This document shows positions 4,606-51,594 of a stretch of DNA of 64,000 nt, piece after piece. This DNA comes from Escallonia rubra (taxonomy: Eukaryota; Streptophyta; Magnoliopsida; Escalloniales; Escalloniaceae): positions 434,001-498,000 of the forward strand of contig JAVXUO010000473.1 of assembly GCA_033065855.1 (NCBI GenBank), in the 5' to 3' direction. The notes beneath the pieces are model-generated. The model worked only from the letters and a program-made list of their open reading frames with translations. It had not been told where the DNA came from and did not search any database. A program made the translations under genes and the position numbers. Position 1 is the first letter of the stretch; each line of letters starts with the position of its first letter.

Positions 4606-4705
4606 GCACGTACTCTATATAACTTTCCTGTCTTTGAATTTTAAGGTCATGTGAGACGAGAGTCTGATCTGAGAAGCTTATGAGAGTTGACTTGGACAAC
4701 GGTAG

Positions 4706-4713
4706 TATATATA
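4706..4713 (-). promoter_or_regulatory. TATA box of GLR-A
   Basis: TATATATA about 100 bp upstream of the ATG at 4605, on the minus strand and in the expected position for a plant core promoter. The matching site in copy B is at 51697-51702. Confidence 0.5.
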
Positions 4714-4779
4714 GACAAATTCATACACATATATGTTGATGGGAAGCTACTCGGAAGTTGGCAAACTAGAATTATCATA

Positions 4780-6498: not shown

Positions 6499-6560
6499 AG
6501 GGTCCCCCCCCTCCTCCCCCTTCCCCCTAGGAGGGGGGGGGGGGGTGGGTGGGTTGGGGG
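6499..6560. repeat. C-run/G-run self-complementary tract
   Basis: A C-rich block with T interruptions is followed at once by CCTAGG and a long G run, so the two arms can pair as a hairpin, and the G-rich arm could form a quadruplex. The copy B equivalent at 52983-53035 is shorter in both arms. Run lengths are probably unreliable in the assembly. Confidence 0.7.
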
Positions 6561-6689
6561 ATATGTGGACAGATTCACACACAAACAAACATTATCTTTT
6601 ATGCTTTTTCAAATCTTATATCTTATAGATGCGCTCTGACTTACGCATCAGAGATTAATCCGCCGGTAACCCCACCCGACAGCCGCTCG

Positions 6690-7560
6690 TTTTTTCTCTT
6701 GCAGGTCATCGTTCCAAGTTAGGGTTCCCGATTATATTCTTAGCAGTAATAAATTGACGCCATCCGTAGGATCCACTAGCCTAGCTGATTGACCTCAAAA
6801 CAATTCAACCATATTGTAATACAAAAGAATTAACTCAACAAAAGTATCATAAGCCGGCGATGGCAATGCATCAGAACCACCGAGAGAACGACCGATGTGG
6901 GTCTCTAATCCAATAGTTGTAAAAAAAAATACCGCCGATCACTGGTCTGTGGAGAAAATTAAGAACTCGGTAAGCAATAGTCACATATTAAAGGAGCCAC
7001 CGGGCGTCACCACTATCAAAACGGTCCAACGTCTTCACTGTAAAACAAAGAAGAAGAGGAACAATTTGAAGCTCGCAGCTGCACAACGGCCTCCACTGTC
7101 GCAATCCACGTACCGCGACATCACCAAGGAACTGGCCGGTGGGCTGGCCTTGCACACAACAGCCAAGTAATTACCTGTTGCGGTGGCAAATTATCAATAG
7201 GGAGGGAGCTACAAAAACCAACACCAACACACACACATGAAAGCAACGCTGCTAAGGACAGTCTCCATGGCCACAAAATCTCGGGACGGGCACCCCCACC
7301 AAAGTAAGCTACCCCACTGCCGTCATTTATGGTACCGCCAAGGGTAGCCATCCATAACGCCGCTGGAGTCCTAACCCCACTACAACCATCCACAGGGGCA
7401 CTGCAGTCACGGGCACCAAAAACCATCGCCGCCATTACAACGCCACCATAGCAACAATCATATGAAAAAATGAGCAGAGAGGAAGAAACGGCAACAGCAA
7501 TGCCGCCGTCGCAGCCAACCAGCGCAACTGCTAGCGCCAATCGGCATAACCACCGCAATA
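6690..7560. other. Uncharacterised intergenic block with a conserved 91-codon open frame
   Basis: A plus-strand frame at 6895-7170 encodes 91 residues, basic in its centre, and stays open with few changes in copy B (53356-53631). I recognise no domain. The overlapping minus-strand frame (7121-7558) is rich in Ala and Val and is disrupted in copy B by the hAT-like insertion. Just upstream, copy B reads CAACAGTGGTATCA, which resembles the end of an LTR followed by a tRNA-Met primer site, so the block may derive from a non-autonomous retroelement. Confidence 0.3.
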
Positions 7561-7581
7561 AAGCTGCTCATCGCCTCAATT

Positions 7582-7805
7582 ATTGAAAGAATTAGTCTTT
7601 AATTTGTATTTTCTATAACAAAAATATTAGCAATGACTAAACGTAGCAAAAGAATAGTAAATAATTGAAAGTAATTTTGTATAAAAAGTCTTGATAAAAT
7701 TATGTCATCTAGAGTAGTAAAATGATATAAAAATAGCAGGTCCGCGAGAGTTACGAAAAAAGTCGTCGTCCTAAAGATATTATCGCATTCCTACATACAA
7801 GTGTT
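7582..7805 (+). repeat. Dispersed repeat, unit 1 of copy A
   Basis: About 225 bp beginning TTGAAAGAATTAGTCTTT and ending near GTACAAGTGTT. It is clearly related to 14622-14850 in the same orientation, with shared blocks such as TGACTAAACGTAGCAAAA and AAAGATATTATCGCAT. The family is unknown. Confidence 0.7.
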
Positions 7806-8480
7806 TGTTGGAAGTTTTAAAACTTCCATTTATTTGAATTTAAATTGAAGGGTTGTAACCCTTTATTTTGGTGTTAAGAGTTATGACTCTTATTTAATAT
7901 TTTTCTCTCCCTATATATAAAGGGATATTATTAAAAAATAATACTTACAAAAAAAAAAAACTATCATATTGAGATTTATACTTTACTATATACTTTGTGA
8001 TATTTTTTTCGTGGGCAATTGATCGGACGGGTTCGAAAGTCTTCCTGTAGTCGTGCTATCAGAGGAGACGCCGCTGTGAGCCTTTGGGTTAAATTTTGGA
8101 TCGTTGTTCCTCATTAGAACCTGCACGAAAGGAGACAACAACAATTTTAAGTCAGCGAATTTCATTCGTGTCTCTCACAGGCCAGCGGTTCTTTCACTTT
8201 AATTATTTATCTATTTTCAACATATATATATGTTATGTGATTTGCATACTTCGAATCTGATTTTATTACTGTCATCATATTTTCGACAAAGTTTTTAGTT
8301 TCAAATTTTCAGTTTTAAACTAACAGTTAAAATCGCTGTTTGAATAAAGTTAGTTTCTGAAATTTGAAACTGTTTGAACAAGGTTGTTGCATATATTGCA
8401 TTTTCAAATTGTTTGCGTTCTTCCCGCATTTTACCGTCATCTCCTGCGCTGCACTTTACTGACATCCCACTGCTTGGGTG
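7806..8480 (+). other. LTR-like sequence, limits uncertain
   Basis: Starts with TGTTGGAAGTTTTAAAAC, has a TATATATAAAGG promoter-like box near 7913 and a Copia-LTR-like composition. I could not find a convincing CA end with a target-site duplication, so a solo LTR is only a possibility. The copy B match starts at 55313. Confidence 0.3.
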
Positions 8481-11460
8481 TTGGTTAATTTGTTTGCATT
8501 TGGTTTAGACACCACTGTCTGCGTTTTATCTCACAGGCCTTTGTTCAGTTTTGTTCTATCTTCATTCCCATTATCCAGTTGTTTAAAGAACTCCAAGGCA
8601 TTGTTTTCATCATTGCTTTCATCATCAATATTTATATTACATTGCATACGAATTGCCTTGAATTCCTGTGTATGGTACAGTGGCTATATATGCTTCATTT
8701 ACATATCCCAATCTGTTTTAAGGCTTTGAAACGGTGCATGTTCAATTTTGAAGCCACAGTTAGCATTTTCATTTTGACGGGCCAACATTGTTTTCCTTAA
8801 AGAGGCACTACAAGTTTTTTTTTTGGTACTCGGCACTACAAGTTTTAAAACCTATTTCGTAGCAGTGAACTGAAATTTTGTTTTAATAGTTGTTCTTGAA
8901 ATATTGTGCTACAATAATTTTGAGTGTTTAATTGTTTGTGCATGAGTAGAATTATTTATTGAGATTGCAGTTTATAATTTTGCAGTTAAATTATTCTTTG
9001 TCCCTTATAATCCCTAATGGCACCACTAGAGGAAGCCCACACTAAAAGGGTGCTACTTTTATCACGAGTCACGTTCTACGGGTTGTTTCTACCCAGTGAA
9101 CCTTCTTCATGGGATCTACAATCACAAAGGATGGGTTAGGTGACTCCCTGTGGGCTCACCCCATCCGCCCCAGGTGAAAAGGATCTAGTCTCTGGCGCTA
9201 CTCACGAGGCAAATTGCATAGCTTTTTATGAAGCCTCTATAACTTTTTTTTTCTTCGATGAAGTATCACAAGTTTGCAAAATTTTAACGGCCCAATAGTG
9301 CACATCGAAGCAACATTATGGATCTCATCAAGTAAATCAAGTTTCAGTGATACCATTCACTTAACATCAAAGATGATACTAGTCAGTAGCCTCACTACTA
9401 CGAATCAAACCTTTGATCGGTAGTCTACTACTAGGAACTAGTCTTCAACATATTATGACTAGTAGTCTTTTACGTAATAGGAGTCACATTTTCTTCAACA
9501 TGTGTCATACTTCGCATAACATAATCTCACATCAATAGCAACTTCATAAAAATCCTCTGATAAATTTAAAGAATTTTGAATTTCAATTCTGAAGCTTTGA
9601 AAAAGCTAGATAAAACACATTTGCAAATATATTTTCAAATTCGCAATCGTATTATAAATATTTGGTATCTAAGATTTAAAATACCAAAAAATTCAACGCA
9701 CCTCATATTCTAGAAATCAAAACTTAGATACCATTTGAAATAAATATAAATATCACAACTATAAATATCAAAACACTAAGATAATCAGAAGTCAAAGACT
9801 TCGATTATCATGATTTAACATCGTTAGCAAAGCATAATTTCTATTACAAGACTTGCGTAACACTTTTTTTTTTTGCACAATTTAAGCTCAGTTATACTGA
9901 ACAACTATATATGCTCAGAGATCCAAGCTAGCAAAGCTAAGTGCAAAGAACAGAAAGTACATGCATGAAATATGTTGTATAATCTCACTACTTGTACATT
10001 CACGCAACATGCTAAAATATACTGTACTTGAAAACTAAGAACATACTAATGTTGTTATTAAGATCTTCTTTGTTTGTACATGACTCAAGAGATTATAATT
10101 GTGATCATATCATGTACTACCCCCCCCCCCCCCCCCCAACCCCCAAAATTCGGAGCCATGTAGTTATTAAAGAATTTAACATTGAAATAAGGATTTCTAT
10201 TTTTTAAATAATTTTGTCAAACAATTTATTTTATAGACGCACTCAACAAAATAAAACCCGCTTCAAGTTACTTGTTCTACAAAAATCGAGAATCCCATGA
10301 GAATTTTCCTCTCTTGAAAGAGAAGTCCATAAACTGACTTTAGGTGGTTTACCAAACTATAACTCTGTGTAAAATTAAAAAAAATTCCTTTTTCTTTTTT
10401 CAAACCAAAACCATGTGTCAAAAATTAGAAAAGAATAAGTGTGGGTATTTTTCAAGATACAACTGCTTATATACAAACATAATATTCTACAAGTAAAGAC
10501 ATCATTGTTATAGTCACTAAATATTATGTCCTGAGAAGGTCATAACATGGTATCACTACATCTTTATATGAAGTTTTTATTTACTTTAGCATAAACCTTC
10601 TGAAAATGATCCAAATTTGTTTTTCCAAAAAAAAAAAATTTGTATTATTCTAGTACATGACTTTACCCCCACAATTCTTAGCCTTGTTACTTTGCAGTGT
10701 TTGACAACCCAGTTCCTTCTTGAATGGGTTAAATTCTAGACACGTTTTGTACCTTCCTTCGCCATCACATTTTAATATAAAATCTTAAAGTCTTGAAAGA
10801 CCGTTGCCTCTTAATCTATTCGGTTCTAAACATAACGATCTTTTGTTTTTTCTTTTATTTTTTAAACACAATATCTTAAGAAGTCTAAAGCAATAGTATG
10901 CATTTCAAAACGTGTTGATATGGCTATTATGGGAGCCTCTACGGAAATGAGTAATCAATCAAACTATAAGCAAATATTTACAAGCATGCACTAACAAGCA
11001 TATCAACATAATCTGAAGATCAAAATGCAGTATCCATTTCCAATTGGGTGTATCTCCATATATTATTCGTTCTATGGTGACAACTTCATGATATCAAAAT
11101 AAATTCTATTGAAAAGGATGTATAACTTTAGATTACCAAATCTTTTCTTAAAAAAAAACTTGTCAAAAGCTTCGGATGAAGCAAATCCCAAGCAACAGGG
11201 AACTTTAGTGCCATTCAAGAGTTGACTCAGGCAATTACGATAGAGCAAATTTTCTGCTCACGTAATTAGTCATCTTTCGATCTAAACAGTACAAAGACAA
11301 AACAATGGAATTCGAGACGGTCATAGCAAAGTTGATCGACAACTTCAAGAACCGAACAAAATAGAACCTCTTATGCCATGTAAGCTTTGACACCATAGAT
11401 ACACACATCATAACATTGTGCATACAATTCCCACATGGTAGAATTTTTGCCTACTATTAC
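8481..11460. other. Intergenic DNA without recognisable genes
   Basis: AT-rich sequence in which I see no supported gene. Open frames near 8478-8800 are short, overlapping and low in complexity. A C homopolymer of about 18 bases lies at 10121-10138. A GC-richer patch sits at 9010-9210. All is shared with copy B (55988-58950). Confidence 0.6.
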
Positions 11461-30768: not shown

Positions 30769-30829
30769 GGGAATAACGAATATACTGCTTGCCTTAGACA
30801 ACTTACCTAAGGCCATAGGATTAAACTAC
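30769..30829 (+). repeat. Left terminal inverted repeat of the MULE
   Basis: About 61 bp matching the reverse complement of 41148-41210 with a few substitutions and a 2 bp indel. Confidence 0.93.
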
Positions 30830-31110
30830 ATGGCTGTAATATTTCTCTTTCTTAGTTATCTCTCATTGTTTGCTCTCTCTTTCATCAGAAAAGACAGGAG
30901 CTCATCGTTGGCCGTCGGCATCAGCACAATCGCCGACGGAAATTCATCTTCTGCCGGCGCCCACCCCAAAAATCACCATCTGCCAGCTCAGATTCCTCTG
31001 ACTTCAACACTGGGCAGCCACTATCAATTGCCCACCTCGCCGGCCCAACCTCGCCCATCGCCGGTGACCTAAACCCCCACCATCACAAACCACCTTGCCA
31101 TCACAAACCC

Positions 31111-31349
31111 ATCGCTGCGGCCGACGAGATCACTGCCAAGCCACTTCATCTCCGGCGAGATCAGCTATCGCCGGAGACAAACAGCTTCCACATCGGCGAC
31201 CCAATACTGCCGCAGATTAGCCAATCCCCATCGCTGCGGCCGACGAGATCACTGCCAAGCCATTTCATCTCCGGCGAGATCAGCTATCGCCGTCACAAAT
31301 AGCCTCCACATCGGCGACCCAACACTGCCGCAGATTAGCCAATCCCCAT
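31111..31349. repeat. Tandem duplication, period 119 bp
   Basis: Two copies starting ATCGCTGCGGCCGACGAG at 31111 and 31230, in the GC-rich left arm of the MULE. They are nearly identical, so recent. Confidence 0.9.
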
Positions 31350-31402
31350 CGCCGGCCAAAAGGGTTCCAAAATAGTATCTTCGAATGTAAAGCTAAGGTA
31401 AA

Positions 31403-34400
31403 TGTTAGAATTTCAAACCCTCATTAAAGTGAGTTGCAAAATTTGACTTAGAAGAAGATAAGAGAAGGTGGCAACCGACTTAAGTAGAACACTCAAGAAC
31501 TTGGAAGAAGATTGATTATCACAAGATAAGGATAAAGAGGTTATCAACTTGAAGAGGATAACTTGATGAAGAGAAGGTGGCTGCCGACTTGGAAGTTTTG
31601 AGAAGATAATGGATAGTTGAAATTGTTGACTCAATTGAATTGGTGAAGTCGGTTAGAACTTTGGAGAAGATGAAGTTGCCGACCTTGTCTATCTATATAT
31701 ATGTGGAGTCTTGTTTAGTTTAGTTTTAAGTCTTAGAGAGTGAGAAGTTAGTGTGTGAGAGAATTAGAGAGTGATTTTGGGAGAGAAAACAAGCAGCAGC
31801 TTGTGTGAGTGAAAATAGAGAATAGAAACAGAGAGAGGTGTTGAAACACCAAGGTTGTGAGTTACAAATATTTTGTTCTAGTGTGTTCTTGTGTAAGAAA
31901 TCTTTGTGTTTCTATATATACACCGCCGTTGTTCGTATCATAAATTTTTGTGATCCCGCTACGCTTCCAACAAGTGGTATCAGAGCCGGCAGGTTCGATT
32001 CTACGTCACAAGAAGGTGAGAGATGGCGAATATAATTCAGCCGCAAATCCCAAAATTAACGAAGACGAATTATGGGAATTGGAGTATCCAAATGAAGGTT
32101 CTACTCGGATCACAAGAATTATGGGAAATCGTTGAAGACGGATACATCGAACCCGCAGATATGGCAGCCGAATCAGCTTTATCAAACGCCCAGAAAACGG
32201 CGTTAAGAGAATCGCGCAAGAAGGATAAGAAGGTCTTGTTCTTAATTTTTCAAGGAGTTGACGAATCAACCTTTGAAAAAATATCAGACGCGAAGACATC
32301 GAAGGAAGCGTGGGAGATTCTGCAGAAATCTCTACAGGGAGTCGAAAAGGCGAAAAAGGTACGTCTTCAATCACTTCGAGCTGAATTTGAGACATTAAAA
32401 ATGATAAGTTCGGAAAATATCAGTGATTATGTTACTCGTTTGAAAACAGTGGCAAACGAGATGAAAAGAAACGGAGAAACTCTAGATGATGTCAGAGTAA
32501 TGGAAAAACTCTTACGTTCTCTGACTCGAAAATTTGATTATGTTGTTACTGCAATCGAAGAGTCGAAAGATTTGTCTCAAATTTCTATCGATGAGCTTGT
32601 GGGATCTCTTCAAGCTCATGAGCAGAGAATAAATCAAAATGAAAATAGCGGAAATTTGGCAAGCTTTGCAAAGCAAATTACATGTAGGTGAAAATCAAGC
32701 TAGCAGTAGCTATGGACGAGGTAGAGGAGAACGTAGTAGCTACAGAGGTGGCTATAGAGGTGGACGTGGTCCACACAGTATACGCGGTGGACGAGGACGT
32801 GGTAGACAATCTTTTGATAGAAGTCAAACAAGCGACGACTATCAAGCATATAGTCGTGGTCGAGGATTTAGAAGCAGAGGAAGAGGTGGATTTCAACAAC
32901 GAGGTGATAAATCCCAGTTAAAATGTTATAGTTGCAACAAATATGGTCATTTTAGTTACGAGTGCAGATCAACTCCTAAAATGGAGGAAAGAAATAATTT
33001 TGCACCAGCTGACGAGAAAAATATGGAAGATGCTATTTTTCTCACTTACAGAGGAAATGAAAAGTGCAAGAAAAATGTTTGGTATCTCGATACAGGTGCT
33101 AGCAACCATATGTGCGGCCGAAAGGAGCTGTTCACAGATTTGGACGAGACTATCAAAGGAGAAGTTACTTTCGGAGACTCGTCCAAGATTCCGATGAAAG
33201 GCAAAGGTAAACTTATGATTACTTTAAAGAATGGAGATAGAAAATTTATATCAGATGTTTATTATGTACCTGCCTTAAAGAGCAATATTATCAGCTTGGG
33301 CCAGCTCTTAGAAAAGGGGTACGATATACACATGAAAGACGGTGCACTTGTTATCAGAAACAAAGATAGAGAATTAATTGCCAAAGTTGAAATGACGAAG
33401 AATCGTCTTTTCACACTTGATATCCGATCTGAAATGATGAGATGCATGAAGTCTGTCATTAAAGATGATTCATGGTTGTGGCATTTAAGATTTGGTCATC
33501 TTGGTTTTAACGGTCTAAAGTTATTATCAAGAACAAAGATGGTGAATGGTCTGCCAGAAATTCATGAACCAGATCAGTTGTGTGAAGCTTGTGTCAAAGG
33601 AAAACAACACAGGCAAAGTTTTGAAGTTGGAAAATCTTGGAGAGCTAGAAGGCCACTAGAGATTGTGCACTCCGATATAGCTGGTCCATTTGATATTCCA
33701 TCACTTGGTGGAAACAGGTACTATCTTACTTTTATTGATGATTTCAGTAGAAAAAGTTGGGTGTACATTCTTAAAGAAAAATCGGAAGCCCTTGATAAAT
33801 TCAAGGAATTCAAAGCAATGGCTGAAAAACAAAGTGGACAGTATCTGAAGATACTCAGGTCTGACAGAGGAGGTGAATACACCTCAAAATTATTTGAGGG
33901 TTACTGTAAAAAGCATGGAATCATTCATCAGTTGACAGCCTCTTACACGCCACAACAAAATGGCGTAGCAGAAAGAAAGAATCGCACGATTCTTGATATG
34001 GCAAGAAGCATGGTGAAGGGAAAGCATTTACCGAGAACGTTTTGGGCTGAAGCTGTTCAATGTGCAGTATATCTGCTAAATCGATGTCCAACAAAGAGTG
34101 TAAAGTTTAAGACGCCAAATGAAGCCTGGAGTGGTAGCCAGCCAAAAGTTGAACATCTCAGAATTTTTGGGTGCATTGCATATGCCCATATTCCTGATCA
34201 AAAGAGAAAAAAGCTCTGTATGGATTAAAGCAAGCTCCGAGAGCTTGGAACACAAGAATAGACGAGTATTTCCAGGAAAATGGTTTCGTGAAGAGTCCTT
34301 ATGAACATGCCTTATACACGAAGAGAAATCAGGACGGTGATATCATGATTGTCTGCTTATATGTGGACGATATGATATTCACGGGAAATAATCCAGGTAT

Positions 34401-35884
34401 GTTCACTAATTTCAAGAAAGCTATGACTAAAGAATTTGAGATGACAGATATCGGTGAAATGTCATACTTTCTTGGAGTCGAAGTAAAACAAATGGAAGAT
34501 GGAATATTTATGTCGCAAAAGAAGTATGCGGAGCAAATTTTAAGCAGATTTAGAATGAAGGATTGCAATCCAGTAGCCATACCAGCAGAAACAGGTGTGG
34601 AGTTGAAAGTTGACTCGAATAGAAAGTCGGTAAACCCGACATTGTACAAGAGTATGGTTAGAAGTTTGAGGTACTTAACTTTTACTCAACCAGATATAAC
34701 ATATGCAGTTGGATTGGTCAGCAGATACATGGAGAGACCAAAACAAGATCATTTCAATGCAGCAAAAAGAATTTTGAAATATGTCAGAGGTACGGTTGAT
34801 CATGGTCTCTTTTATACTCACTCTCAAAATTCAAGATTGATTGGTTATTCAGACAGTAATTATGGAAGAGACTTGGATGATCGGAAGAGCACATCTGGAT
34901 ATGCCTTTCACATTGGATCAGCAATATTTTCGTGGTCATCAAAGAAGCAACAAATAGTTGCTCTCTCAACATGTGAAGCCGAGTATATAGCCGCAGCAGC
35001 GTGCACGTGCCAAGCAATATGGTTGAAGAATATTTTGAGTGAGTTGTCTCTCATTGAAGAAGGTCCGACTACGATATACGTCGACAACAAATCTGCTATA
35101 GCACTTGCGAAGAATCCAGTATCACATAGTCGAAGCAAGCATATAGACACGAGGTATCATTTTATTCGGGAGCAAGTTAAAAATAAAGTCGTGGAATTAG
35201 TTCATTGCAGAACGGAAGACCAAGTAGCAGATATTTTTACAAAGCCATTGAAGACCGACATATTCCACAAACTCAAAGAGAGGCTTGGCATGAAGATTCG
35301 GGTTTGAGGGGGAGTGTTAGAATTTCAAACCCTCATTAAAGTGAGTTGCAAAATTTGACTTAGAATAATATAAGAGAAGGTGGCAACCGACTTAAGTAGA
35401 ACACTCAAGAACTTGGAAGAAGATTGATTATCACAAGATAAGGATAAAGAGGTTATCAACTTGAAGAGGATAACTTGATGAAGAGAAGGTGGCTGCCGAC
35501 TTGGAAGTTTTGAGAAGATAATGGATAGTTGAAATTGTTGACTCAATTGAATTGGTGAAGTCGGTTAGAACTTTGGAGAAGATGAAGTTGCCGACCTTGT
35601 CTATCTATATATATGTGGAGTCTTGTTTAGTTTAGTTTTAAGTCTTAGAGAGTGAGAAGTTAGTGTGTGAGAGAATTAGAGAGTGATTTTGGGAGAGAAA
35701 ACAAGCAGCAGCTTGTGTGAGTGAAAATAGAGAATAGAAACAGAGAGAGGTGTTGAAACACCAAGGTTGTGAGTTACAAATATTTTGTTCTAGTGTGTTC
35801 TTGTGTAAGAAATCTTTGTGTTTCTATATATACACCGCCGTTGTTCGTATCATAAATTTTTGTGATCCCGCTACGCTTCCAACA
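31403..35884 (+). mobile_element. Young Copia retroelement nested in the MULE
   Basis: LTRs of 570 bp each at 31403-31972 and 35315-35884, beginning TGTTAGAA and ending CTTCCAACA, with a perfect 5 bp target duplication GTAAA (31398-31402 and 35885-35889). The primer site TGGTATCAGAGC (31975-31986, initiator tRNA-Met) and a purine tract before 35315 are present. Parts: gag from 32023, zinc knuckle, protease (motif DTGAS), integrase, reverse transcriptase and RNase H regions up to 35307. The LTRs differ at only 2 of 570 sites by eye; at 0.7-1.3 x 10^-8 changes per site per year this gives roughly 0.13-0.25 million years. The element is broken, with one to a few breaks, and shorter than whole relatives. 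Confidence 0.95.
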
Positions 35885-35960
35885 GTAAAAACTGACAAGG
35901 CAGATAACACTTTGCACAGTTCAAAATCCTGATATGAGCTTAATCCTTAGGATGTTATTC

Positions 35961-36124
35961 TTTTTCCAGTGAGATTCTTAGGATGTTATTGATTAAGTTA
36001 AAGATGGGAATACCTTGTTTGCAAAGCAGACACGATTGTTATTATTTTTCCAGTGAGATTCTTAGGATGTTATTGATTAAGTCAAAGATGGGAATACCTT
36101 GTTTGCAAAGAAGACACGATTGTA
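35961..36124. repeat. Tandem duplication, period 84 bp
   Basis: Two copies of a segment containing TTTTTCCAGTGAGATTC (35961 and 36045), inside the MULE just after the Copia insertion. Confidence 0.9.
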
Positions 36125-37290
36125 GTTGTAACGGTGTGCAGGGTAGACCCAAGAGTTGCAGACGAAGTGGACCTTGCCACACCGGCGATGGAAGCATGCA
36201 CTTGCAGAATTTGGAGATTTGGTAGGCTGGGCCTTCCCAAGTTCATATTACAGGTAATTGATTTGACGTTAAGTCATTTGTTATTTGCCATTTTCTTTTG
36301 CTTTCCGATCAAACTCTTTTCAAGTATTTTAAGGTCTCTAATACTTTAAAATAATGAAGACTACAATTGCTATTTTGAATATCAGTAACGAGGATTTGCC
36401 AAGAGACTTGAATAAATGGATTAGCAATCGAATACGTACAGAATGCACTTTATTGCGATGGGTAATTAGGTGGTGTTGTTGTCACACCTAAAACTACGCT
36501 TCACTTTCTTATTTGCGGCGCTTGGTACAGTGTAAATTGAAGTATTGAATCTTCCGATCCCTCAGTCTAGCTAGCCATTGAAAGATGAAAATGTGATCTA
36601 GTGAAGATACACAATCAGTCTAGATAGTGATTCACAGTGGTTCAAGTGAAGATGCACAATCCTTATTGTTCAAGATGTTCTACTGGACCCTCCATTAAAG
36701 CTTTTTAGATCAGAAGGAGATATAAGCTCATCATTCATGATGTTCTTACTTTCCTCTAGCAACATAATTGTGGACTTAAGGTAATTGTCTATTGACGAGG
36801 AAACTATGCTCTTGTGCCTGTGACATATGCTTACACACCTCAGTCAGCTTGACATTACTTGTTCATGGTCATGTGCCTTCTCACACTCCTACCCTCTCTG
36901 AATATCTTGGGTCTGAATTCTTCTTGGTATTATAAACAAGTCTTAGTAATAAACAAGGTTGCCTAAGTTGTAACATCGTATTTAAAAGTGCCTAAGTTGT
37001 AACATCGTATTTAAAAGACGAATGGACCCTAGCAAGGAGATCCTTATTCTTTTAGAAGGACACTAGCAAGTAGATTCATATTTTTCTACCACTGTGAAAA
37101 TCTGATTTATGTACCAGTCTTTAACACTAACAATGGAACTCTTCTAAACATTACTGGTCGTTCATGTTTAACAGTAACAACGTTCGAACTTCACCCCCCC
37201 TCCCCTTTTACTGTTTCCTCTTTTATCTTATCTAATCTTCATTTCTACTGTAACCAGCCATCTAGTTCCTGATGGGAGAAATGAAACCCT
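36125..37290. other. MULE interior, no gene recognised
   Basis: A frame near 36134-36240 ends at a possible splice donor (CAG then GTAATT) and might be a captured exon, but I recognise no protein. A further short duplication of CCTAAGTTGTAACATCGTAT occurs at about 36962 and 36990. Confidence 0.4.
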
Positions 37291-37300
37291 CAACATGATT

Positions 37301-37400
37301 GCAGAAAAATGTTTGATTTTATGCAGTGTCTTCCAAGTCGAACCATGTTTGCAAAAAAGGTTTGATTTCATGCAATGTCTTCCAAGTCGTACCAAATTTC
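37301..37400. repeat. Tandem duplication, period about 49 bp
   Basis: TTTGATTT-ATGCA-TGTCTTCCAAGTCG occurs at about 37312 and 37361. It has several differences, so it is older than the 119 and 84 bp duplications. Confidence 0.8.
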
Positions 37401-37550
37401 ATGATTACCCTATACTTGGTACTGATCTAGTATTAATTGTTCGATTCAGACAACAGATGGCCGAAATGTTATCAGCCATACCAGAGTTTCCCAAGCCCCT
37501 CAAATGCAACAAGCACATGTTTAAGCTCGATCGGGAAGTAATACATAATT

Positions 37551-37710
37551 GTTCTTGACAATGGCCTCACAATTGCAGTCAAGAGGCTTGAGCCAATTGA
37601 GGATGAGTCTCCTGAGGCTCAGAGGAAGTCGGTCAAGAGCTTGAAATGCTTGCTAGGTGTTCACCAGGCACAGGAGCTTGAAATGCTTGCTAGGTGTTCA
37701 CCAGGCATAG
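37551..37710 (+). pseudogene. Captured fragment of a CORYNE-like receptor kinase
   Basis: Thirty codons from 37551 read VLDNGLTIAVKRLEP and then ...ESPEAQRKSVK, matching from memory the start of the kinase domain of CORYNE (CRN), a membrane pseudokinase of the CLAVATA stem-cell pathway. The part includes the beta-3 lysine motif (IAVK). It is followed by QELEMLA, the expected C-helix region, within a 37 bp tandem duplication (37637 and 37674). The rest of the kinase is absent. It lies inside the MULE, opposite to the transposase relic, as expected for gene capture. It is not likely to make a working protein. Confidence 0.75.
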
Positions 37711-38650
37711 GTGGTCGCCGGTTATGGTGGGTTACACTGCAGCAGTGGGGTGATTTTTGTCACCAATCGGTGGGGTGGCTTTTGTGTGTGGCGGTGTGGC
37801 GATGTCTGTGTGTGTATGATGGGCTAGGGATTGGGGAGGGAGCTGATGGCTAATGGGAGTTATTTTTGTTGGTTTATGGTTCATTAAAATAGGTTTTCAT
37901 TCAATACCACCAACCTGCAATGTGATGGCTTTGAATGGCTTTGGAGCTGATGATACAGGCTTTATGGTATGATGATGACATTGGCCGTAGTGTGTTATAT
38001 TACCAAACTGAGATTTTATTGTATTTTTTGGATACTTGAATGGAGTCTTATGTATTCTAATGAATGGAACTGAGATATTATGACTTTCAAGAATGGTAAC
38101 ATTGCACTGTGACGACATGTTACATAGAGTCTAATTGTCTACAAAACACGACATTGATATTTTATTCTCTTCAAAAGCTCGTTGTCTGAATATATTTTAT
38201 GAACAGTCAATTTGGATTGTAGGAACACATAAGTTGAAAGACATGCCTCGAATCAATTCCAATATAGAGTTGCTTGCGAAAACAAAAACAATGTTCAAAA
38301 TTCTACCATTTACAATGACAATTTCAAAACTAAGCTATGTCCCTCAACATCTATCCCTAGCAGTAGCCTCCGCACGTTTATAGCGCCTACTCATTATGTA
38401 ATCCAAACTTCCTTCTGGTAGTGTGCCTACGTACAATCAAGAATAACCAATTAGGCGAATAACAAATTAGGAGAAATGACAAAAATAAAAACATGAAAAT
38501 GACAAGAACATGACAAAGTTATACCAAATCTTACGCGTATTTACAACTATTGACCATAAATGCCTTCTCTTTCATCCCTCTAAAATAATGCAAGTTATAA
38601 ATTAGTTTATGCAACCCAAACATATTACGCAACATGATATTTCATTAGAT
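37711..38650. other. MULE interior between kinase fragment and transposase relic
   Basis: A GT-rich stretch (37700-37850) and then AT-rich DNA. No gene supported. Confidence 0.5.
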
Positions 38651-38656
38651 AAAGAA

Positions 38657-40433
38657 TCAGCAGGTGAGTTTGACTTCAAAATATACCTTGCGCTTTGCGC
38701 AACCAGTCCTGTAATGACCTTTCCCGTGACAATATGCACAAGTTCTTTGTTTCCTTTCTTCTTTTGCTAATTCAATGGAAGATTTCAACCTACTAGCAAC
38801 TCTTGGACGCCCCTTGGTCTTAACCGGGGCAGCAGGGTCACGTATAGATATCTGATTCATACTTTCGACTTGAGAAATACATACACTTGAACCAGCTTGG
38901 CTAACCATTTTGTCACCAATAAGATTCTCCTCGATCTTTCTTGCAGCTTGCTTTTCCAAGAAGCTAGTAAGCCATGAATCAATCTCACATACTTGAAGAA
39001 GAATTACTTGCATTTTCAATTGCCTTTGAAAATTTTGCTCGAACTGACCACAAAGTTAAAAGGCTGACTCCCTTTTCAGTGGATTTTGTACTGATCTCAT
39101 CCATTCTATTGCCAACATCTCCGACCTTGTACCGAGCACTAATTGTCCATCTAGGCAAAATGTAGTACTCAGGAAGATCAATTATTTTCTTCTTCTTCAA
39201 AATATAGAGGATGTGCTTGCATAATATTCCCGCCGTTTCAAATTTTGCACATGAACAACTAGCTCTAAGATCTTTCGACGAATAATAGGAAACTGTTCGC
39301 CATTTCTCCTTATCAACAGCAATCAAACCCACTCTGTATTTCATAACATTAGTTTCCTTACTCCATGTTATGTGCGAACAACTAATACTAGCATTCCATT
39401 CTTTCTTAAAGATCTCAAACAAATTTGTTCGTCATGTAAGTCACATCAAATACGACAACATCACCAAACTGTGCATATGATGCCCTTGACCTTCCGTCAG
39501 CCCAAAAAACACTTCTCAAGAACCATCTATAGCTAAATCCACAGCAAAATAATAACTATCATCCAACGTGGCCTTTTCTTGAAAATGTTTAATAATCCCA
39601 TAGCATTCTTTCCCTACATTATTTTTTCTTTCAACACGTATAATACTAGAACATTGTCTTGGAGTTACGTCAGCTTCTTCGTTGGGCTTCATCACATTCA
39701 CAACTCTAGTAATCTGAGAAGGTTTTAATCCCTCATTGTTAATGTCAGCCACAAGAGACTTGCATACATTTGTACGATGATACTTACTATGAGAGCGATG
39801 CCTGATTACTTTTGATGGAGTAGTAGTGAGAGGATGGTTGTGAACATCTTGAAACTTGTCAACAACCCACATTCCAAGCGACTTCGACAAAGTAACCTGC
39901 ATCATCGCTTCACAACCGGTTCTCAAGTCCCTGCGCCTTTTTTCATTCCCGTTCAGTCTTTTATCATCCAATTTCTTGAAACCCTGCTTATTGCACACAA
40001 ATTGCCTCCTAAAAATTGCACCAGTGGCCATAAGCTTATGTGCATTGTGTTTACGAGTTCCAAAGCCGTTTAAGAGGGCATATTGGTTGTAAAACTCATA
40101 TGCTGCTTCTTGTGTATCAAATGTTTTTCCATCTATATGTTCACTGTTAAAATCTTCAAAACTTCCGAAAGTCTCGTTCTCCTTACGAGTTTCAACCTCA
40201 CCATCGCAATGTGAAAGGCCCCAAACATTGCAATCATCGGTCTCAAGTTCATCATGGGCATGGGTATCTAGGATCTCATGATCCGTCAAATACTCATTCG
40301 CATCAATTTGCTCAATCGACTGAAAATTGTGTGCAACCGTATGTGGCCTTGCGGTGTCGGCCATGTAATTGCACGTAATACAAAGACTTGTAACAAAGAA
40401 TTTAAGTAGTTTAACAGCTTGGTGGAAGGGCAA
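38657..40433 (-). pseudogene. FAR1-like MULE transposase relic lacking the catalytic core
   Basis: A relative of the FAR1/FHY3 family, which derives from MULE transposases. The first frame (40433 to 39516; an inner ATG at 40364 gives MADTARPH) carries an acidic N-terminus and a FAR1 DNA-binding domain at about 40150-39800, with FVCNKQGFK, GCEAMMQV and FQDVHNHPL. A short piece in another frame (about 39515-39425) has FWADGRSRASYAQFGD and FDVTYMTNKF, the start of the MULE catalytic domain. It then jumps straight to FEIFKKEW, so about 200 residues of the DDE core are missing. The next frame (39422-38985) has the SWIM zinc finger (CSC...CKH), and 38657-39019 has a C-terminal CCHC-like knuckle (CAYCHGKGHYRTGC). 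At least two frame changes besides the deletion. A spliced DNA-binding product is conceivable but unproven. Confidence 0.88.
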
Positions 40434-40528
40434 AGCTCTGTAAGGGCAAGAATCTCAAAAAACAACTACGGGTCTATGGCTAGTTGGTGGGGAGAAAGAG
40501 CTACGACAGTTTGGACCAAATAGCGATG

Positions 40529-40880
40529 GCCATGTAAAGCAGCTGCGAATATACCTTTGACATTGCGGTGGCCATGTAAAGCAGCTGCGAATATACCTTT
40601 GACATTGCGGTGGCCTGCGGCAGCGGTGGGTGTTTCTCCCCGGTGAAAGAAGCTGGTTCGCGGGATGGGAAATTGGGCGTAGTGGCTGTTTCACTGTTGC
40701 AGCGATGGTGGTTTTGGTGATTCTACGGGAGGATTGGTCAGGGTCATTTCTGTGATGGTGGTTTCGGTGATTATGCGGGAGAAGAGAGGGGCGGCAATGG
40801 TCAAGGTGATTCCTGCTATGGTGGTTTCGGTGATTATGCAGGAGGAGAGGGGCGGCAACGGTGGGTCACTGGCGTGGCAG
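40529..40880. repeat. Tandem duplications of 42 and 63 bp in the MULE right arm
   Basis: GCCATGTAAAGCAGCTGCGA occurs at 40529 and 40571 (period 42). ATGGTGGTTTCGGTGATTAT occurs at 40755 and 40818 (period 63). Both lie in the GC-rich arm between the transposase start and the right inverted repeat. Confidence 0.9.
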
Positions 40881-41147
40881 GTCGCCGGCGTTGAGCGTTC
40901 AGAATCAGAAACAGAAATGGCTGCGTGGAGGCTAACGGCCGGCGTTGTGCGTTCAGAAACAGAAGTGCGATTGTTGGGTCTATTGGCAATTGGGCGAGTG
41001 CGGTGGGCTGCTATGTTATCTGCTGAGACAGAGAGATTGATGGGGATTGGGCTGCTGACGGCCGGCGAATACTACATGAAAACTACGTAGAGAGAAATTC
41101 ACGGGAATAGATAGATTAGAGAAACAGAAATACAACATCAAAACTAC

Positions 41148-41207
41148 GTAGTTTAATCCTCTAGCCTTAGGCAAGTTGTCTAAGGCAAGCACAGTATATT
41201 CGTTATT

Positions 41208-41210
<3 letters not shown>
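41148..41210 (-). repeat. Right terminal inverted repeat of the MULE
   Basis: Partner of 30769-30829, ending CGTTATTCCC at 41210 and followed by a (TA)n run. The inner border overlaps the palindrome AAACTACGTAGTTT. Confidence 0.93.
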
Positions 41211-42019: not shown

Positions 42020-45000
42020 TAATTATGACCTCCGAGTTAGATGGTGACCACAATGATATTTGGCATTGCAAAGTGCAATTTATTCTTGAGTAGCACATAT
42101 GTCATGGCTTGGCTCACTCAGGGTACTGCTTAATTTGAAGAAGATCAAGAACCCTATAAGAAGTGGTTGAAAACGACCATGTTGCTCGTATTATGCTACT
42201 GTTACATGCAAAATGATCTTCTACGCAAATTTGAGTAATACTTTACTGCAAAAAAATGTCACATGCTCTCAAAGCAAACTTTGGTGACACCTCAGCCACT
42301 CGACTCCGTAATGTGACAATCAAGTTTGACGGTTAAGAAACGTGCTGATCGCACAGTGAAACAACACATTTAGACAATGTCAAACATGATCCGTGAAGGC
42401 TTTGGGAAATAATCTTACTAATGATTACAAGTTCATGCAATGATTTGCTTCCTTCCCATGTATTGGGAGCATATGATAGTCAATATGACCTAAAATAACA
42501 ACATCAAGACTTTTGAGGCCATTGCAAGGCACTTAGAGCTCAAGGATGAGCGCCTAAAGGCAACCAAGGCCGTTTAAGCATATGCTGCTGAGTCCATTTC
42601 CTGTCGGACATCTGGGTCCAAAATAGAAGAGGAGAGGTGGGAAGGGAAATCAAAGTGGTGTTGGAACTTCACGAAATTGGTAAGAACAACAAAGGTAAGA
42701 AAAGAAAACGGGGAAAGAAGGACAAGTCAAAGATGACTTGTTACAACTTTGACAGGAAGGGACACTTTGCTCGTGAATGCATTGCAGTGAAGAATTTAAA
42801 TTATTTTCTTACGTCATGTATACTTGTTGCTAAATCTCTCCCTGTTTGGATTGTAAACATAAGATTAACAGATGACATCTTGAGGGGTCGAGTTAGTTTC
42901 GTGGAGTGTCATTGGGTTCCTAGTGGGAGCAGAAGAGTATACACAGAAAATAAGTCCAATATAGAGGTTTTGGGCCTTGGCATTTACAATCTGAAGACAC
43001 GAGGAGGTCGTACATTACATCTCCACATTATAATTAATGATCCGGGGACTCGATGGAATCTTCTCTCAGTCTTTTCTTTGCTTAAGTTAGGTCTATTATT
43101 CCAGATTGAAAATAATAAGGTAAATATCTATCAGATGGCTTTATGGTTTTAAACATCGTCAATAATCCTTCTTATGATAGTTCATTTACTTTGTTCGCTT
43201 TTGTTCATGATGCCGATGATGATTCTATTAAGTGGCATACTAGATTAGGCCATACTAGATAGGCTAGAATTAATTGCAATGGAGCAGTTTTCCTAGTTGC
43301 CTTTTTAATGGTTTTGTAGTTGGCAAGGCATGATATTTCATACTTCATCACTTTCATTAATGATTACACGTGTCTCTCGATCATGTCTACCCAATCTCCC
43401 ATAAGTCAGAAGCATTAGATTACTTTAGATGATATATTAACAAGGTTGAGAATCAATTATACAAAAGGATAAAGGCCTCAAGGCTGATCAAGGACGCACT
43501 ATTTATTTGATCAATTAAACCATTGATGTGAAAATAAAGGAAGTACTAGACTATTAAGGATTCTTGGAATGCCACAACAAAATGGTACATCAGAAACAAG
43601 GAATCAAACCTTGCTTGACATTGTTAGGTCGACGATGGCTCAAACTAATTTGCCTACCACCTTTTGGAGGATGCATTATTGACTATGTCTTGCATCCTTA
43701 ACTGTGTAACCTCCATATCAGTACCCTCCACTCCTTATGAGTTGTGGACTGGCAAAAAGCCTGACCTCAGTGTAGCGAACCGCCTCGAAAAAGAGAGAGG
43801 CGTTTGGGGACTAAGTTATACGACGGGAAGGTGTTAGGCACTCGACATACCCTTTTAGTCTCTACTTCATTTCTATTAGTTTTTGGCCTTTAAACACAAA
43901 AACATACAGTAAATCAAACTCTAAGCTTATTCCTATATTTTTTTGGTTTGAATTCAACATCGGGGGTCAAATGACTTACGTATCCGGTCAGACAAACGGG
44001 AACCAAAACCGTTGTAGTTCGATCGAACCCTACAATAGGCGACTTATGTCTCGTTCTTTGACTCTTATGATGACACTACTTTTTCTAGTTGAGTGGACTT
44101 AGAACTCTAAATTGACTACTCTTCTAGTGGTTTAGAATTCTAAATAAAATGAAAAACTTTGATTTTATTTAGTATATATTTTCTAATCGAGATGCAGTCG
44201 CGGGGAGAGGAAATAATCTAGACTCTTCTAATCTAGAAATAACAATGCTAAAAAGGTGGATAGAGAATCATACCTTGGTCCGGTTTATCCAATCGTTTGG
44301 TCCAATACTCGATTTAAAGTAAAAAATAAAGAACATCAATTTACCCGATTATAAAACTGCTATTCTGGACCTCAATACAATTTCAAACAGATTTGACTCC
44401 TTCTAGAAAATTGTAGCTCTCAAAAAAGTAAATGATTTAAGCTTTTGAATCGATTAAATTGGATATCGAAAGAGCAAGTTAGAGCTAGTAAAAAATCTAG
44501 AAAGAAAATCTGTTCGATTTTAGAAAAAAGAATTATTTTGGACCTGAAGACGACCTTAAGTTTTGACTTATTCTACTGTAGCTCTAAAAAACATACATGA
44601 ATTACGCTTTTGAATCGTCTAAATTGGGTATCGTATGAGCATATTAGAGTCAGACAATTAAAACCCTGGAAAGGGAATCTGTCGATTAGAAAAACCCAAT
44701 TTTGAGCCTCAAGACAATCTGTAATGAATTCAATTTCGTCTGTGAGGTTGCAACTATTGAAAAGATACCCGACTTAAGCTTTCGAATTGCCTGAATCGGG
44801 TAATGTATGGGAAAATTATGGTCTGTCAAAGTTTAGGTGTATGCTTGATACGAGAATTCAAGATTTCTAACCTAGCCACTCTTCTCCTAGGATTTTTTTT
44901 CCTCTCTCCTCTAATCATCCCCAAATGAGGTAAATAACCTTAACTAGGTTAAACTTAACTGGACTGGACTTCACTCAAACTGGATTGGACTAAAGTGAAT

Positions 45001-46644: not shown

Positions 46645-49600
46645 TCATCTATGAAAATGGAGTACTAGCGTTGTCAACCTGTACCACATGTTGTTATATG
46701 CCTCATGGAGGCGTTCGTACGACTGGCGAATGAAAAATGCTAGATAACAGAGGGTGGAAGTGATGGCTGAACAGAGGTAGAGACCCCAGAAACTTCGCCA
46801 ACTCAGACTAGTACTCTTGTCAGGAGCTTGGGAGGTTAAACATTTGGAGGAGGGGGCAAAAGAGACGGTTTCCAAGTCTTTTAGCCAACCACTCTCTAAT
46901 AAGCTTAGAATCACTTGTGAGAAATCCGCTGTCAATGGAGAGCCTTTCTGGAAGACCTACAAAAAAACAAAGAGCGCTCCTCTTCAGACAGATTAAATGG
47001 ACAATCAAATACAAGAAAAAGTGTGCAGTAAATACTCACAAAGCCCAATCCTCCAAATCTGTCTTCTCCATATCTTCCGGTGATTCCAGACACAGTGTAA
47101 CCCTTGCAATAGTGATTGAAGAAAGCTTTCTGATAAGGGAGCTCAAGAAATGCTGCGGTGATATTGCCGCTCACAAATTCCTCGGGGTATTCGTATTCAG
47201 TGCTAACATTCCTAATGTTTTCAGACTTAAATTTATGCACATCCTCCAAGTATCTCCTTACAAACGAATCACCGTCGCAGCCAACTTTTGCATTGGTCTT
47301 CTTTAGCCGTTCTACGTCTGTCACATTTGGCTCGAGTTGTTGCACGGTGAGCATCGAAGATAGGCTGGCGGTGTAGCTTGAGTTTAAGGCCAACACAACA
47401 AAAAGCCACGCCAAGACTACTACGCGGGCATAATTGTTATGAACTTTTTCTCCTGCATGAACAATATATAGGTTATATTATGAGTATACACACTTCATTT
47501 TTATGGTACTCTCTTCTTCATTGACTGAAGGATAAATAGTACTACCTTTTTAGTGTTTTAGGTTCTTGTTTTTAAAGATAAGTTATGTGCAGTTAGAATG
47601 GGTGCAGGTGGTACTCTCTCCCAGTACACCACCACTTGCCATTCTTACGCTACCCAAGTTTCCAGTCTTGAAGAAGATGTGACATGAATGTTGTGGTAAG
47701 AAGGTACAGATGAACCTAAAAATAGAAAAGTGCAGTAAACAAAATGAAACGTCATCTTGTCAAATTAAAGATCGCTGGATCGGAGCTCACACCTCTGAAT
47801 GCTCTCAATTGCTATTCTCAGTAACCTATGACAGAATCATAGCATCAATTTGTGCACAAATTTTGTCAACAGATTACTAGTATCTAATCAACGTGGACAA
47901 ACTTAATTCAAGGAATGGAAAAAGGTTGGAATGAGGCTTACTGTGAGCAAAGAAAAGTGTAGTGGAGGTAAACCAAAATGCGGTGCCTAGCTGGCTCAGC
48001 CATGGGCCTTCAAATTCTGGATTTGATCTACCCTCCAAAAGCCAGACTATCATCACCGTGTACATCAACATGACAGCGGTCAATACCCACATTTTCAAGG
48101 TGAAAGGCTTCAAAAACATCCATGCTTTCTCAGGCTGGGGCTTCAGTGTAACTATCATAGTCAAGCTTGAGTCAGCGAACGACTGAGTGAAGTCGACACG
48201 TTTTGAGCGGTCGGCTAGTATTGTTACATCGCCAATCACAGCATCATAACTCTTCAAATCAAGTTGGAAAATCAGTAATATTAATCAGAAACTAAAAAGT
48301 TGGACATGGAGAGATAAATAAAAGCACTAGAGCTTCATTTTTGTATCTTACTTCTAATCTTAGCAAAGTGTTCCTCAAAAGTTTTCTGGACTATGGAGAA
48401 GATCTTTACCCGAGGGTTGTGGTTTATAAGCAAAACCCTGTTAGATTAGGATATTACCTTGCATTGCATTATAGTATATATAGGATATTACCATATGTCC
48501 ATTTACGAAGACTTTGAGATAGCATGCTAGAAATGCAGTCCTTACCTTGTTAGCCACATGATTGACCAGGTCATCGTAGGTACCATTGTAGGGTACAAAA
48601 TCATAAGGCAGGGAATAATTTTTCTCCAACTGTTTTAGCACCTCTTTGAAAACTTTAATGCAAAAGCCGTCGTAGTCGTCCTTCGAACTTCCATTCCCTG
48701 CAACCTTCACAAATTTTTCAAACGAAGTTCTGGCCGGAACTCCGATCTTCATCGGCCTTGCATTAGTAGGCATTGACCATCCCTTAGGAACTCGCTTTAG
48801 ATCTCCTGGCCAATTCACTAAACCACTTAAGACTTCCATGCTATCCTTTCTGATTTTCTCTCCACCATTTTCACGAATGAGCCCCTTCGAGAAACCAAAC
48901 TTGGATGACCAAAACCCAAGCTCTTTGTACCGCTTTCCTATGACATTTACAATCCTAAATTCAGAGGACTGCAATGAACTTCTACCAGAAAAGAGAATAT
49001 CACCGCTTAAACCTTTGAAATTGACAGATAAAATAGCTTCAAGAAGCGAAGTTGTGTTGGCACCACCTAATTTCTCTATGGCATTTGTAAGGGCAACAAT
49101 GCTATCATATGCTCTTAGGGCATAAATTCCCATCTCAGAGAAGTCTTCCTCAGGGTATTCTGCAAGAAATTTTAGCCTAAACTGGCGCTTAAATTCATTG
49201 AAAGGCATACTTCCCTCCAGAAAGTATGTCTTGATTCCTAGAGCACCTTCCATAGAGGAAATAACAGACGTATTCACCGATTCAAGGAGGCTCGCAATTT
49301 CATCTGTCGTTATCCATGCTGAATCTTTCCCCATAAGTCCAATTTCCTTTGCTTCTTTAAATAGATGAGTTGCCATTGAAAATGAAGAATGAAGAACAAT
49401 AAACACCCTAGACTGTTTGTTTAACAACTTAGTGACCTCGTCACGAACGTAGCTTTGTGGATTGGATAGAGAAGAAAATGGGGGAAGAGCTAAACGAAAT
49501 TCTATCTCTGCGCCAGCATCTCGAAGTGCCTCAGCTAGTGCAGCAAATGTCCCTGAATCGCCACCATAGTTGTCAACTTCATAGATCGGTATCACCCATC

Positions 49601-51594
49601 GCCAATTGAAGGAGCCGACAATAGCTGCAACGCATTTGATTTGCTCAGTAACATTGCTTGAAAGCTGTACCAAATAAGACGACTGTGGTGGCACGAGTGG
49701 CAGTGTAACGGCAGATGACGTGAATGAAATAACCGGCACTTTCGCTTGTCTTCCAACCTCAGAAACCAAAGTTGCTTCCTCCCATGTCTCCATGCCAATA
49801 ATTGCTTGCACACCCCTCTGTCTAATAAGTTCATCAGCTGCAACAGAAGTTCAAAATGGCCTTGAATATTATTATTTGCAACAGGTTAACTACCACATCT
49901 TCAGTTCACCGTGCAAAATAAATAAAGTCCTGTAATATGCCCTGAGGTTAAGTTATACTCCGTAGTAGTCAATGAGGATACAAAAGTCAGTTTGGCACAG
50001 TTTTTGGTTGTGGCTATGAAAATTTTCCTTTAAGGATAGTAAAATGGCGATCAAAATCCCTTCCTTGTTACCATACTACGCCAATAAGGCCTAGCCGGAG
50101 AGGGGATTGGATGGAGCTGACTAGGATTCAATGTAGATTCTTCCTGTGCCTGCATGTATGAAGACTTCCCTTTTTTCCCTTCTTGGTGGTTGGAATAAGT
50201 GGTGGGATCATATGGTTCTGATCTATCCAACCGGCAGGAAGTATTGTGCCTCGGAGACCCTAGGCCTTCACATACATCTGAGCCCTTGATATCCGCACCG
50301 GGGCCGAAACGCACGGGAAACTCGCGTGTGGTACACATGCAAGGTAAGGACATAAGTTTGTCCTTGACAAGAAACGACGGGCAGGAGACTCAAACCCAGG
50401 TGGTGTGCCTGAATTGAGAACCTGGGATCCACTGAACCAACTCCTTATACCAACACTTCACCATGTGTTTTCTATGCTTTTCGGCATAGGGTATATTGGA
50501 GCGGACCACCACGAATTGAAGACCATAAACATAGTCTATGCTTCACCAACCCTTTTGTTCGGAGCTATAAGAAACAAGAGGAAGAAACTTAAACGTTCCT
50601 GTCAATACTATGTAGTGACCAGGAAGGAGATGATTGAAATATGAGCTCTTACAATCTTGAACAAGGCTTCTACAGTGAGGCTTGAGTGGGCTCTCTCTGA
50701 AAAATAAAAGACTATGCTTCGGGCCAATAAAATATAGAGCAAACTCTTAAAGGTTGGACTCTTGCTAGACACATCACTAGCTATAATACTGGAACTGGAA
50801 TGGTACCTCATCCCTGAAGTGTTAATTGGCATCCGCTAGAGCCTCTAATGCCCAAATGTTTGGTCCCAAAGTTGTTAGAAAAGGGGATAACGCAAGGTAC
50901 TAAGTGGGTATTTGTGTGAAATCACTTTCTTTTTGCTCCTCTTGCTGCTTGGTTATGCTGCTTGAGTGGTTTTTTTGCTTGGTTTCGTACTTTTCGTCTT
51001 TTTACTTGGTTTTCTTCTTGTTGGATCTGTTGGAAGTGCCGTGTTTGTTTTCTTGTATGTAAAATCAGATTAATCTTTTCAAGACAAATAAAGACCCGAA
51101 ATCTCATATGCAAAGCAGGAAGCTGGAAAAAGATGATGATTTTTTAAAATTTAGTCTATATTGCTAAGCCTAATGGGCAGTTCTTATTCAACTATTCCAC
51201 ATCAACGCTAAAACCCAGGAAATGGAATTTTAGCAGAATAGATAAGCGAACAACCTAGTACCAAACCAGCTAACAAGAAAGACCGAGTCATGAAAGGTGT
51301 TACCAAAGACCTACCGGCATAAGCTGCTTGAAGGGGCGTTGATCGCCAGTTCTGCTCGTGAAAATGAAGAGATACCTTGTGATAGCTTGATGAACGGTTG
51401 TAATACTGAGCAGCTATTTGCATGCCTACTTTTGCTTCTCTCCCGATTCTTGTATCAGCGTTGACAATAGCACCCACGTTTATGGTTTCGCTTTGAGCTG
51501 CGTCTATGGGGGTTACATGTTCCAGGGCGAGACTGATTAGAAGAAAAGTGCTCACCATCACAAGGAAAGGCATTTTTGGCAGCATCATTACCAA
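46645..51594 (-). CDS. GLR: Glutamate receptor-like channel, copy B (complete, five exons)
   Basis: Exons on the minus strand: 51315-51594, 48546-49837, 47942-48251, 47040-47452 and 46645-46956. Together they make 2607 nt, 868 residues, in frame with canonical GT/AG junctions. Approximate layout: signal peptide 1-33; amino-terminal domain 35-400; S1 457-560; M1 576-596; pore loop 611-625; M3 with gate SYTASL 638-660; S2 661-810; M4 818-840; short C-tail. It is slightly shorter than many plant GLRs (about 900-950) because of the short tail. Relative to copy A the conserved S1 motif reads FTQSFADSS instead of FTQPFTDSG, and the pore helix has STT instead of STA. Family membership is certain; clade II is likely. 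Whether the protein still works as a channel cannot be told from sequence. Confidence 0.95.
50165..50450 (-). mobile_element. Same probable SINE in intron 1 of GLR-B
   Basis: Counterpart of 3180-3475, with the same box A-like and box B-like motifs on the minus strand. It was present before the duplication. It shows many substitutions against copy A, several of the CG to TG/CA type expected from methylated repeats, whereas neighbouring introns are identical between copies. Confidence 0.5.

Follow-up and report, generated by a model that had tools for sequence, protein, structure and literature searches.

A TA-repeat-inserting MULE in Escallonia rubra carries transposase remains, transduplicated gene pieces and a nested Copia element

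The stretch of Escallonia rubra DNA analysed here (64,000 nucleotides, hereafter the window) carries at 30769-41210 a MULE unit of 10,442 bp, which is reduced to a 5,955-bp element once a nested Copia retrotransposon (4,482 bp) and its duplicated target (5 bp) are subtracted. The first-pass annotation had proposed that inverted repeats of about 60 bp delimit a single 10-kb unit, and the ends agree with this: the left terminal inverted repeat lies at 30769-30829 on the plus strand, with a 61-bp core common to the family and weaker similarity to about 30861, and the right one lies at 41149-41210 on the minus strand. A repeat search aligned the two over an ungapped core of 58 nt at 84%, while a gapped alignment extended over 93 nt at the left end and about 100 nt at the right one. 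Next to the left repeat is a G+C-rich subterminal region (30830-31356, plus strand) with an internal duplication at a spacing of about 119 bp, common to the window copy and a sister copy on contig C1797. Further out in the window, minus-strand matches to the ANF_receptor and ligand-gated channel domains at 1459-2871, 46935-47477 and 48444-49850 mark glutamate-receptor-like genes on both sides of the MULE, which perhaps form a tandem pair. Just outside the unit, a weak plus-strand Pol_BBD match at 42592-43149 (E=8.6e-5, under the curated cut-off) is perhaps another Copia-type relic.

The same ends recur across the genome, as had been anticipated. The 19-bp tip GGGAATAACGAATATACTG is exact at both ends of the window copy and was found with at most 2 mismatches at 96 sites of the 566-Mb genome, against 7 for a reversed control pattern, and a 162-bp query from the left end returned at least 40 genome matches, 40 of 81 candidates having been scored; these family copy counts are lower bounds. 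Terminal inverted repeats, a MULE feature, are common to the window copy and other family copies. MULEs typically produce target site duplications (TSDs) of 9-11 bp; an exact 9-bp match brackets the window copy, but it carries little weight alone because both flanks are TA repeats and the match is located in a (TA)n run. Twelve elements whose boundaries were set by hand gave 6 exact 9-bp duplications, 2 with one mismatch and 4 unmatched (the sister included), and a 771-bp relative at C1801 has an exact duplication that is not purely TA. Of 27 distinct ends, which are a non-random sample of the family, 25 have a run of 6 or more alternating T and A within the first 25 bp outside the element, and for 22 the run reaches 10 or more; among 5000 positions picked at random from the same loci, the corresponding shares are 2.9% and 1.1%. 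The window copy's family inserts into TA microsatellites. A genome search with the left flank of the window copy gave 20 further matches, all of 65-77% identity except for one of 116 bp that reaches 92% and is located on the window's own contig, some 42 kb upstream.

Inside the unit, the transposase gene occupies the minus strand and is degraded, in agreement with the earlier description of a FAR1-type MULE. Its N-terminal part (39516-40374) matches the FAR1 domain at E=4.4e-25 and ends at a premature stop, a second fragment (38985-39431) matches the SWIM zinc finger at E=7.7e-6, and a C-terminal fragment (38657-39055) lies in another frame. The MULE domain (PF10551) had no match in the window copy, and alignment with relatives places a deletion of about 680 bp at 39421-39423, which removed the catalytic core, and also reveals the loss of a single base, after which a stop codon is met. 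The FAR1 DNA-binding domain together with the SWIM zinc finger identifies the transposase relic of the window copy as FAR1-type, the link from FAR1 to Jittery-like transposases being drawn in PMC2528002 and PMC4486113. A query with the 3' half of the transposase hit at least 40 distinct genome places, the window and sister copies among them, 40 of 81 candidates having been scored. Relatives with long open transposase frames exist, and two of them hold FAR1, MULE and SWIM in one stop-free frame: C1010 (789 codons, MULE domain E=7.8e-31) and C2973 (707 codons, E=5.1e-31). Judging from their sequence, such relatives might supply transposase in trans. The sister on C1797 retains a MULE-domain fragment (E=8.7e-17) and has its own single-base deletion; a disabling mutation common to both copies was considered and, for the region near the first transposase motif, rejected, the single-base deletions there lying at different positions.

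Between the left subterminal region and the transposase remains lies captured cargo (31357-38138, Copia excluded), a mosaic of pieces on both strands that match separate loci, which may be paralogues of the true sources. It begins with a lipoxygenase piece on the minus strand, whose first part (31357-31402) is separated from the rest by the Copia insertion and whose second part (35890-36178) contains an 84-bp tandem duplication; the piece matches C1405 at about 95-96%, from the last part of a PLAT-domain frame into what follows it, and a lipoxygenase-domain frame comes next at that locus. There follows a plus-strand TIR-NLR piece (36189-37156), composed of the end of a TIR-domain exon and the non-coding sequence after it, with matches at C207, C54, C1494 and others that recur along several contigs. 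Its first 143 bp, including the TIR frame end, are 90-92% identical at C207, C54 and C1494 and its later parts 71-94% identical, and the C207 copy, the sole one tested for domains, has a TIR domain at E=7.1e-40. At 37215-37522 (plus strand) two pieces from C1414 have changed places relative to that locus and overlap by 3 to 6 bp where they meet (about 37471-37476), one matching over 37215-37473 at 75% with a large gap and the other over 37471-37522 at 94%; the C1414 frame at the matching spot had no Pfam match.

The kinase piece had been described as lying opposite the transposase, and it is indeed on the plus strand at 37524-37693, with a 37-bp tandem duplication, although at about 170 bp it makes up a small part of the cargo. 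Its match to the coding sequence of a C1434 kinase, made up of 116 bp at 90% and two short stretches of exact identity, is confined to 37524-37693, so that the kinase homology stays well within the inverted repeats, as the earlier interpretation required. The source frame on C1434 (L022 4080-5066) matches Pkinase at E=9.1e-23 and reads HYNLKPSN and ADCG. Active kinases carry HRD and DFG motifs, and by sequence the non-canonical motifs at these sites are consistent with a pseudokinase. We call the C1434 kinase CORYNE-like as a provisional name; none of the best 60 of 462 PDB sequences is named CORYNE, SOBIR1 (1.6e-28) and BRI1 (1.9e-28) being on top, and the literature searched contained nothing combining CORYNE with Pack-MULEs.

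The last piece of the cargo (37693-38138, plus strand) matches sequence beside ankyrin-repeat frames at C1010 (E=9.8e-18 for the frame near the match) and C1894, with further copies at C1133 and C3194; identities are 82-93%. On C1894 (L057, C1894:85000-91000, 1-3285), the 3' part of a family transposase is followed by a 2.3-kb ankyrin-frame stretch that is 96% identical to C1010, with a near-identical ankyrin frame, and another family copy therefore seems to hold a larger piece of the ankyrin-side source. No family ends, at up to 12/36 mismatches, were found within about 5.5-7 kb at each of the ankyrin-side loci L038, L039, L056, L057 and L058. The cargo is thus more than the simple kinase fragment first reported, being a mosaic with four further captured sources and no notable reading frame. 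A new fusion protein was considered and finds no support: within the 2,417 bp of captured sequence no ATG frame exceeds 87 codons, a length reached in 39 of 200 block shuffles, and a 102-aa frame over the kinase piece had no Pfam match. The cargo is most likely non-coding debris.

The lipoxygenase piece is interrupted by the Copia LTR retrotransposon (31403-35884, plus strand), which is framed by 570-bp LTRs at 31403-31972 and 35315-35884 with 2 mismatches between them and by the 5-bp TSD GTAAA. Domain matches to gag, integrase and reverse transcriptase were obtained, and the paired LTRs, the 5-bp duplication and the position of integrase upstream of reverse transcriptase establish the nested element as Copia. 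A later Copia hit had been recognised in the first-pass annotation, which missed the internal deletion: the stretch from integrase to the middle of the reverse transcriptase is missing, with SH3 matched over 2-29 of 73 and RVT_2 from 117 of 244.

The sister copy at C1797:350221-358188 provides a comparison. It carries the cargo as in the window copy, except that 37796-37980 is absent and the 84-bp duplication is present as a single copy, and it runs uninterrupted through the Copia target, with a single GTAAA and no Copia. The flanks of the two copies, compared over about 3 kb to either side of the window copy and about 0.9 kb to either side of the sister, shared just 17-bp chance matches, and segmental duplication, considered as an alternative to transposition, is not supported. 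In place of the right end of the window copy (41120-41210), about 1.7 kb of the sister repeat its own other end in inverted orientation. This inverted copy reaches window position 37047 and thereby includes the lipoxygenase piece and most of the NLR piece, with the kinase piece outside. Aligned over 1,800 bp, a length that takes in the flanking TA repeats, the arms show 95.6% identity, and the sister's right tip is without its last bases.

Divergence between the two copies is not uniform. In 200-bp bins, the difference is 0-1.5% between 36085 and 38484; the two bins that follow show 3.5% and 1.0%, those between 38885 and 39684 show 10-13%, and those further right 2-10%. This places an approximate mosaic breakpoint at 38800-38950 (about 38,880), where divergence from the sister rises from about 1% to about 10-11%. 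For a copy on C1378, by comparison, the difference from the window copy is 1.15% across 39421-41119 and 3.5% across 39195-39423, with no match further left in the stretch compared; C1378:175001-190900 contains a Copia-type element and had no left end at up to 8/29 mismatches. The window copy is therefore near the sister on its left and near the C1378 copy on its right, and we conclude that copies have exchanged parts.

The arms of the sister bear on this exchange as well. Over 36037-37047, the window copy differs from the sister's right arm at 9 of 1011 positions and from its left arm at 20 of 1011, while the two arms differ from each other at 19 of 1011; of the 24 sites that vary, 15 set the left arm alone apart, 5 the window copy and 4 the right arm. 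That the arms differ more from each other than the window copy does from the right arm is at odds with a recent arm duplication in the sister, and under a clock the inverted arm would be older than the split between window copy and sister, in which case the recombinant would be the window copy. The arm differences are explained as well by an unseen third copy or by a faster left arm, and the sister's centre, an outlier among the copies compared, points away from the window copy as the recombinant. We raise only tentatively, as a minority reading, the more general idea that family copies are modules swapping halves and ends, so that gene scraps would accumulate by exchange between elements and not by capture in each element. 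If true, cargo from one copy would pass to copies with other transposase halves and ends.

The timing of these events can be bracketed using substitution rates of 1.3e-8 to 2.5e-9 per site per year, uncalibrated for this plant. The cargo of the window copy and that of the sister differ at 16 of 1,759 positions (9/1011 plus 7/748), and with these uncalibrated rates the split in the cargo would date to about 0.4-1.8 million years ago and the Copia insertion to about 0.1-0.7 million years ago. The order in which the cargo came before the split and the split before Copia holds whatever the rate.

Taken together, these observations make it highly probable that a TA-targeting MULE captured pieces of several host loci, moved or was copied, exchanged parts with relatives, lost its core and then gained a Copia element. 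The starting point would have been a FAR1/Jittery-type family of TA-microsatellite MULEs, one element of which acquired pieces from several host loci. Capture would most likely have proceeded via template switching in gap repair or at stalled replication, a route to which a single short junction overlap lends slight support; PMC8277862 makes the case for it in animal TIR elements and brings it up for plants too. Because the two copies sit at sites with unrelated flanks, we infer that the composite then moved or was copied, the transposase probably being provided in trans by relatives. The copies would have traded halves or ends, leaving the mosaic seen in the alignments. In the window copy the transposase was deprived of its core and of its reading frame, and a Copia element inserted afterwards, both of which can be read directly from the comparison. 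The window copy is now a non-autonomous passenger, for which a protein product of its own is very unlikely.

Several other explanations deserve weighing against this history of capture. The cargo could be old internal sequence of the MULE family, with the host loci containing MULE remnants and not the reverse, and this may hold in part, since the ankyrin-side piece adjoins a family transposase at C1894 too and no Pfam family was found in the C1414 frame at the matching spot. The remaining pieces speak for host origin, however: the kinase match sits in a Pkinase-containing frame, the NLR match includes the end of a TIR-domain frame, the lipoxygenase match includes the last part of a PLAT-domain frame that has a lipoxygenase frame next to it, and none of the other family stretches compared matches 35885-37690, which leaves this explanation very unlikely. 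Still less credible, to the point of being extremely improbable, is the view that nested insertions and rearrangements piled up by chance and never formed a mobile composite; the window copy is itself a mosaic with a nested Copia, but C1797 holds near-identical cargo in the same order, with the same ends and between flanks that do not match.

A functional alternative would cast the composite as a regulator, with transcripts over the captured pieces giving rise to small RNAs that lower donor-gene expression. A regulatory role for the cargo is possible in view of its sequence, as captured pieces lie on both strands and the sister's long inverted repeat, foldable if transcribed, takes in the lipoxygenase and nearly all of the NLR piece, though not the kinase. 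Identity is just 90% to the kinase locus and 90-92% to C207, C54 and C1494 over the first NLR part, and we regard such regulation as unlikely. The history of capture, movement, exchange and loss stays our preferred reading, and we class the window copy as a MULE that inserts into TA repeats, retains transposase remains and carries transduplicated pieces of genes.

Most features of this element have counterparts in known systems. The first-pass annotation had called it Pack-MULE-like with part of its transposase kept; both the host pieces and the transposase are present, but the arrangement is not unusual, as MULEs described in grapevine likewise join transposase sequence and transduplicated host gene pieces in one element (PMC2528002). 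Compared with those elements, the window copy has five captured sources and signs of exchange between copies. Like Pack-MULEs and Pack-TYPE elements it has inverted ends around fragments from several host loci, but unlike them it retains much of the transposase gene; under strict usage, in which host gene fragments lie between the ends and transposase is absent, it is not a Pack-MULE because transposase sequence is kept. One published pipeline (PMC8903248) sets elements matching transposase aside as autonomous or autonomous-derived.

Insertion into TA microsatellites and tips with G runs are shared with MuTAnT of Medicago truncatula, whose 9-nt TSD may be a further common feature and whose autonomous element AutoMuTAnT has a Jittery-like transposase (PMC4486113). 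The ends differ, with GGGAATAACG in the window copy against GGGGTTTGCT in the MuTAnT search mask, and the mask GGGGTTTGCTAGAACA differs likewise from the window-copy ends; the term "gene fragment" is absent from the text of that paper. Microsatellite-targeted MULEs are known in guayule and rice too, according to PMC5907723. The sister resembles, in its rearranged ends, the multiple-TIR MULEs of tomato, maize, rice and Arabidopsis; those mostly have tandem extra TIRs, as PMC3310237 describes them, whereas in the sister an inverted copy of about 1.7 kb, cargo included, replaces one end.

Although the individual features are already known, their combination makes a rich example, in which a MULE with transposase remains holds fragments of kinase genes and of defence-type ones (NLR, lipoxygenase), and in which copies have different parts in common with different relatives. 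The case is a clear one: a second copy allows comparison, the source loci can be identified and the later insertion can be placed in the order of events. It is useful for studying how gene fragments build up in transposons, leaving the existing picture of the family unchanged. On C1797, the TA repeat next to the sister also holds a second, diverged family end (L021 9000-9069) about 110 bp further out, and family elements may pile up in one microsatellite. On C2910 (L025, C2910:600500-610490, 352-9641), a 9.3-kb pair of family ends surrounds a stop-free frame of 1,286 codons, which, recognised by eye, resembles a LINE-type reverse transcriptase.
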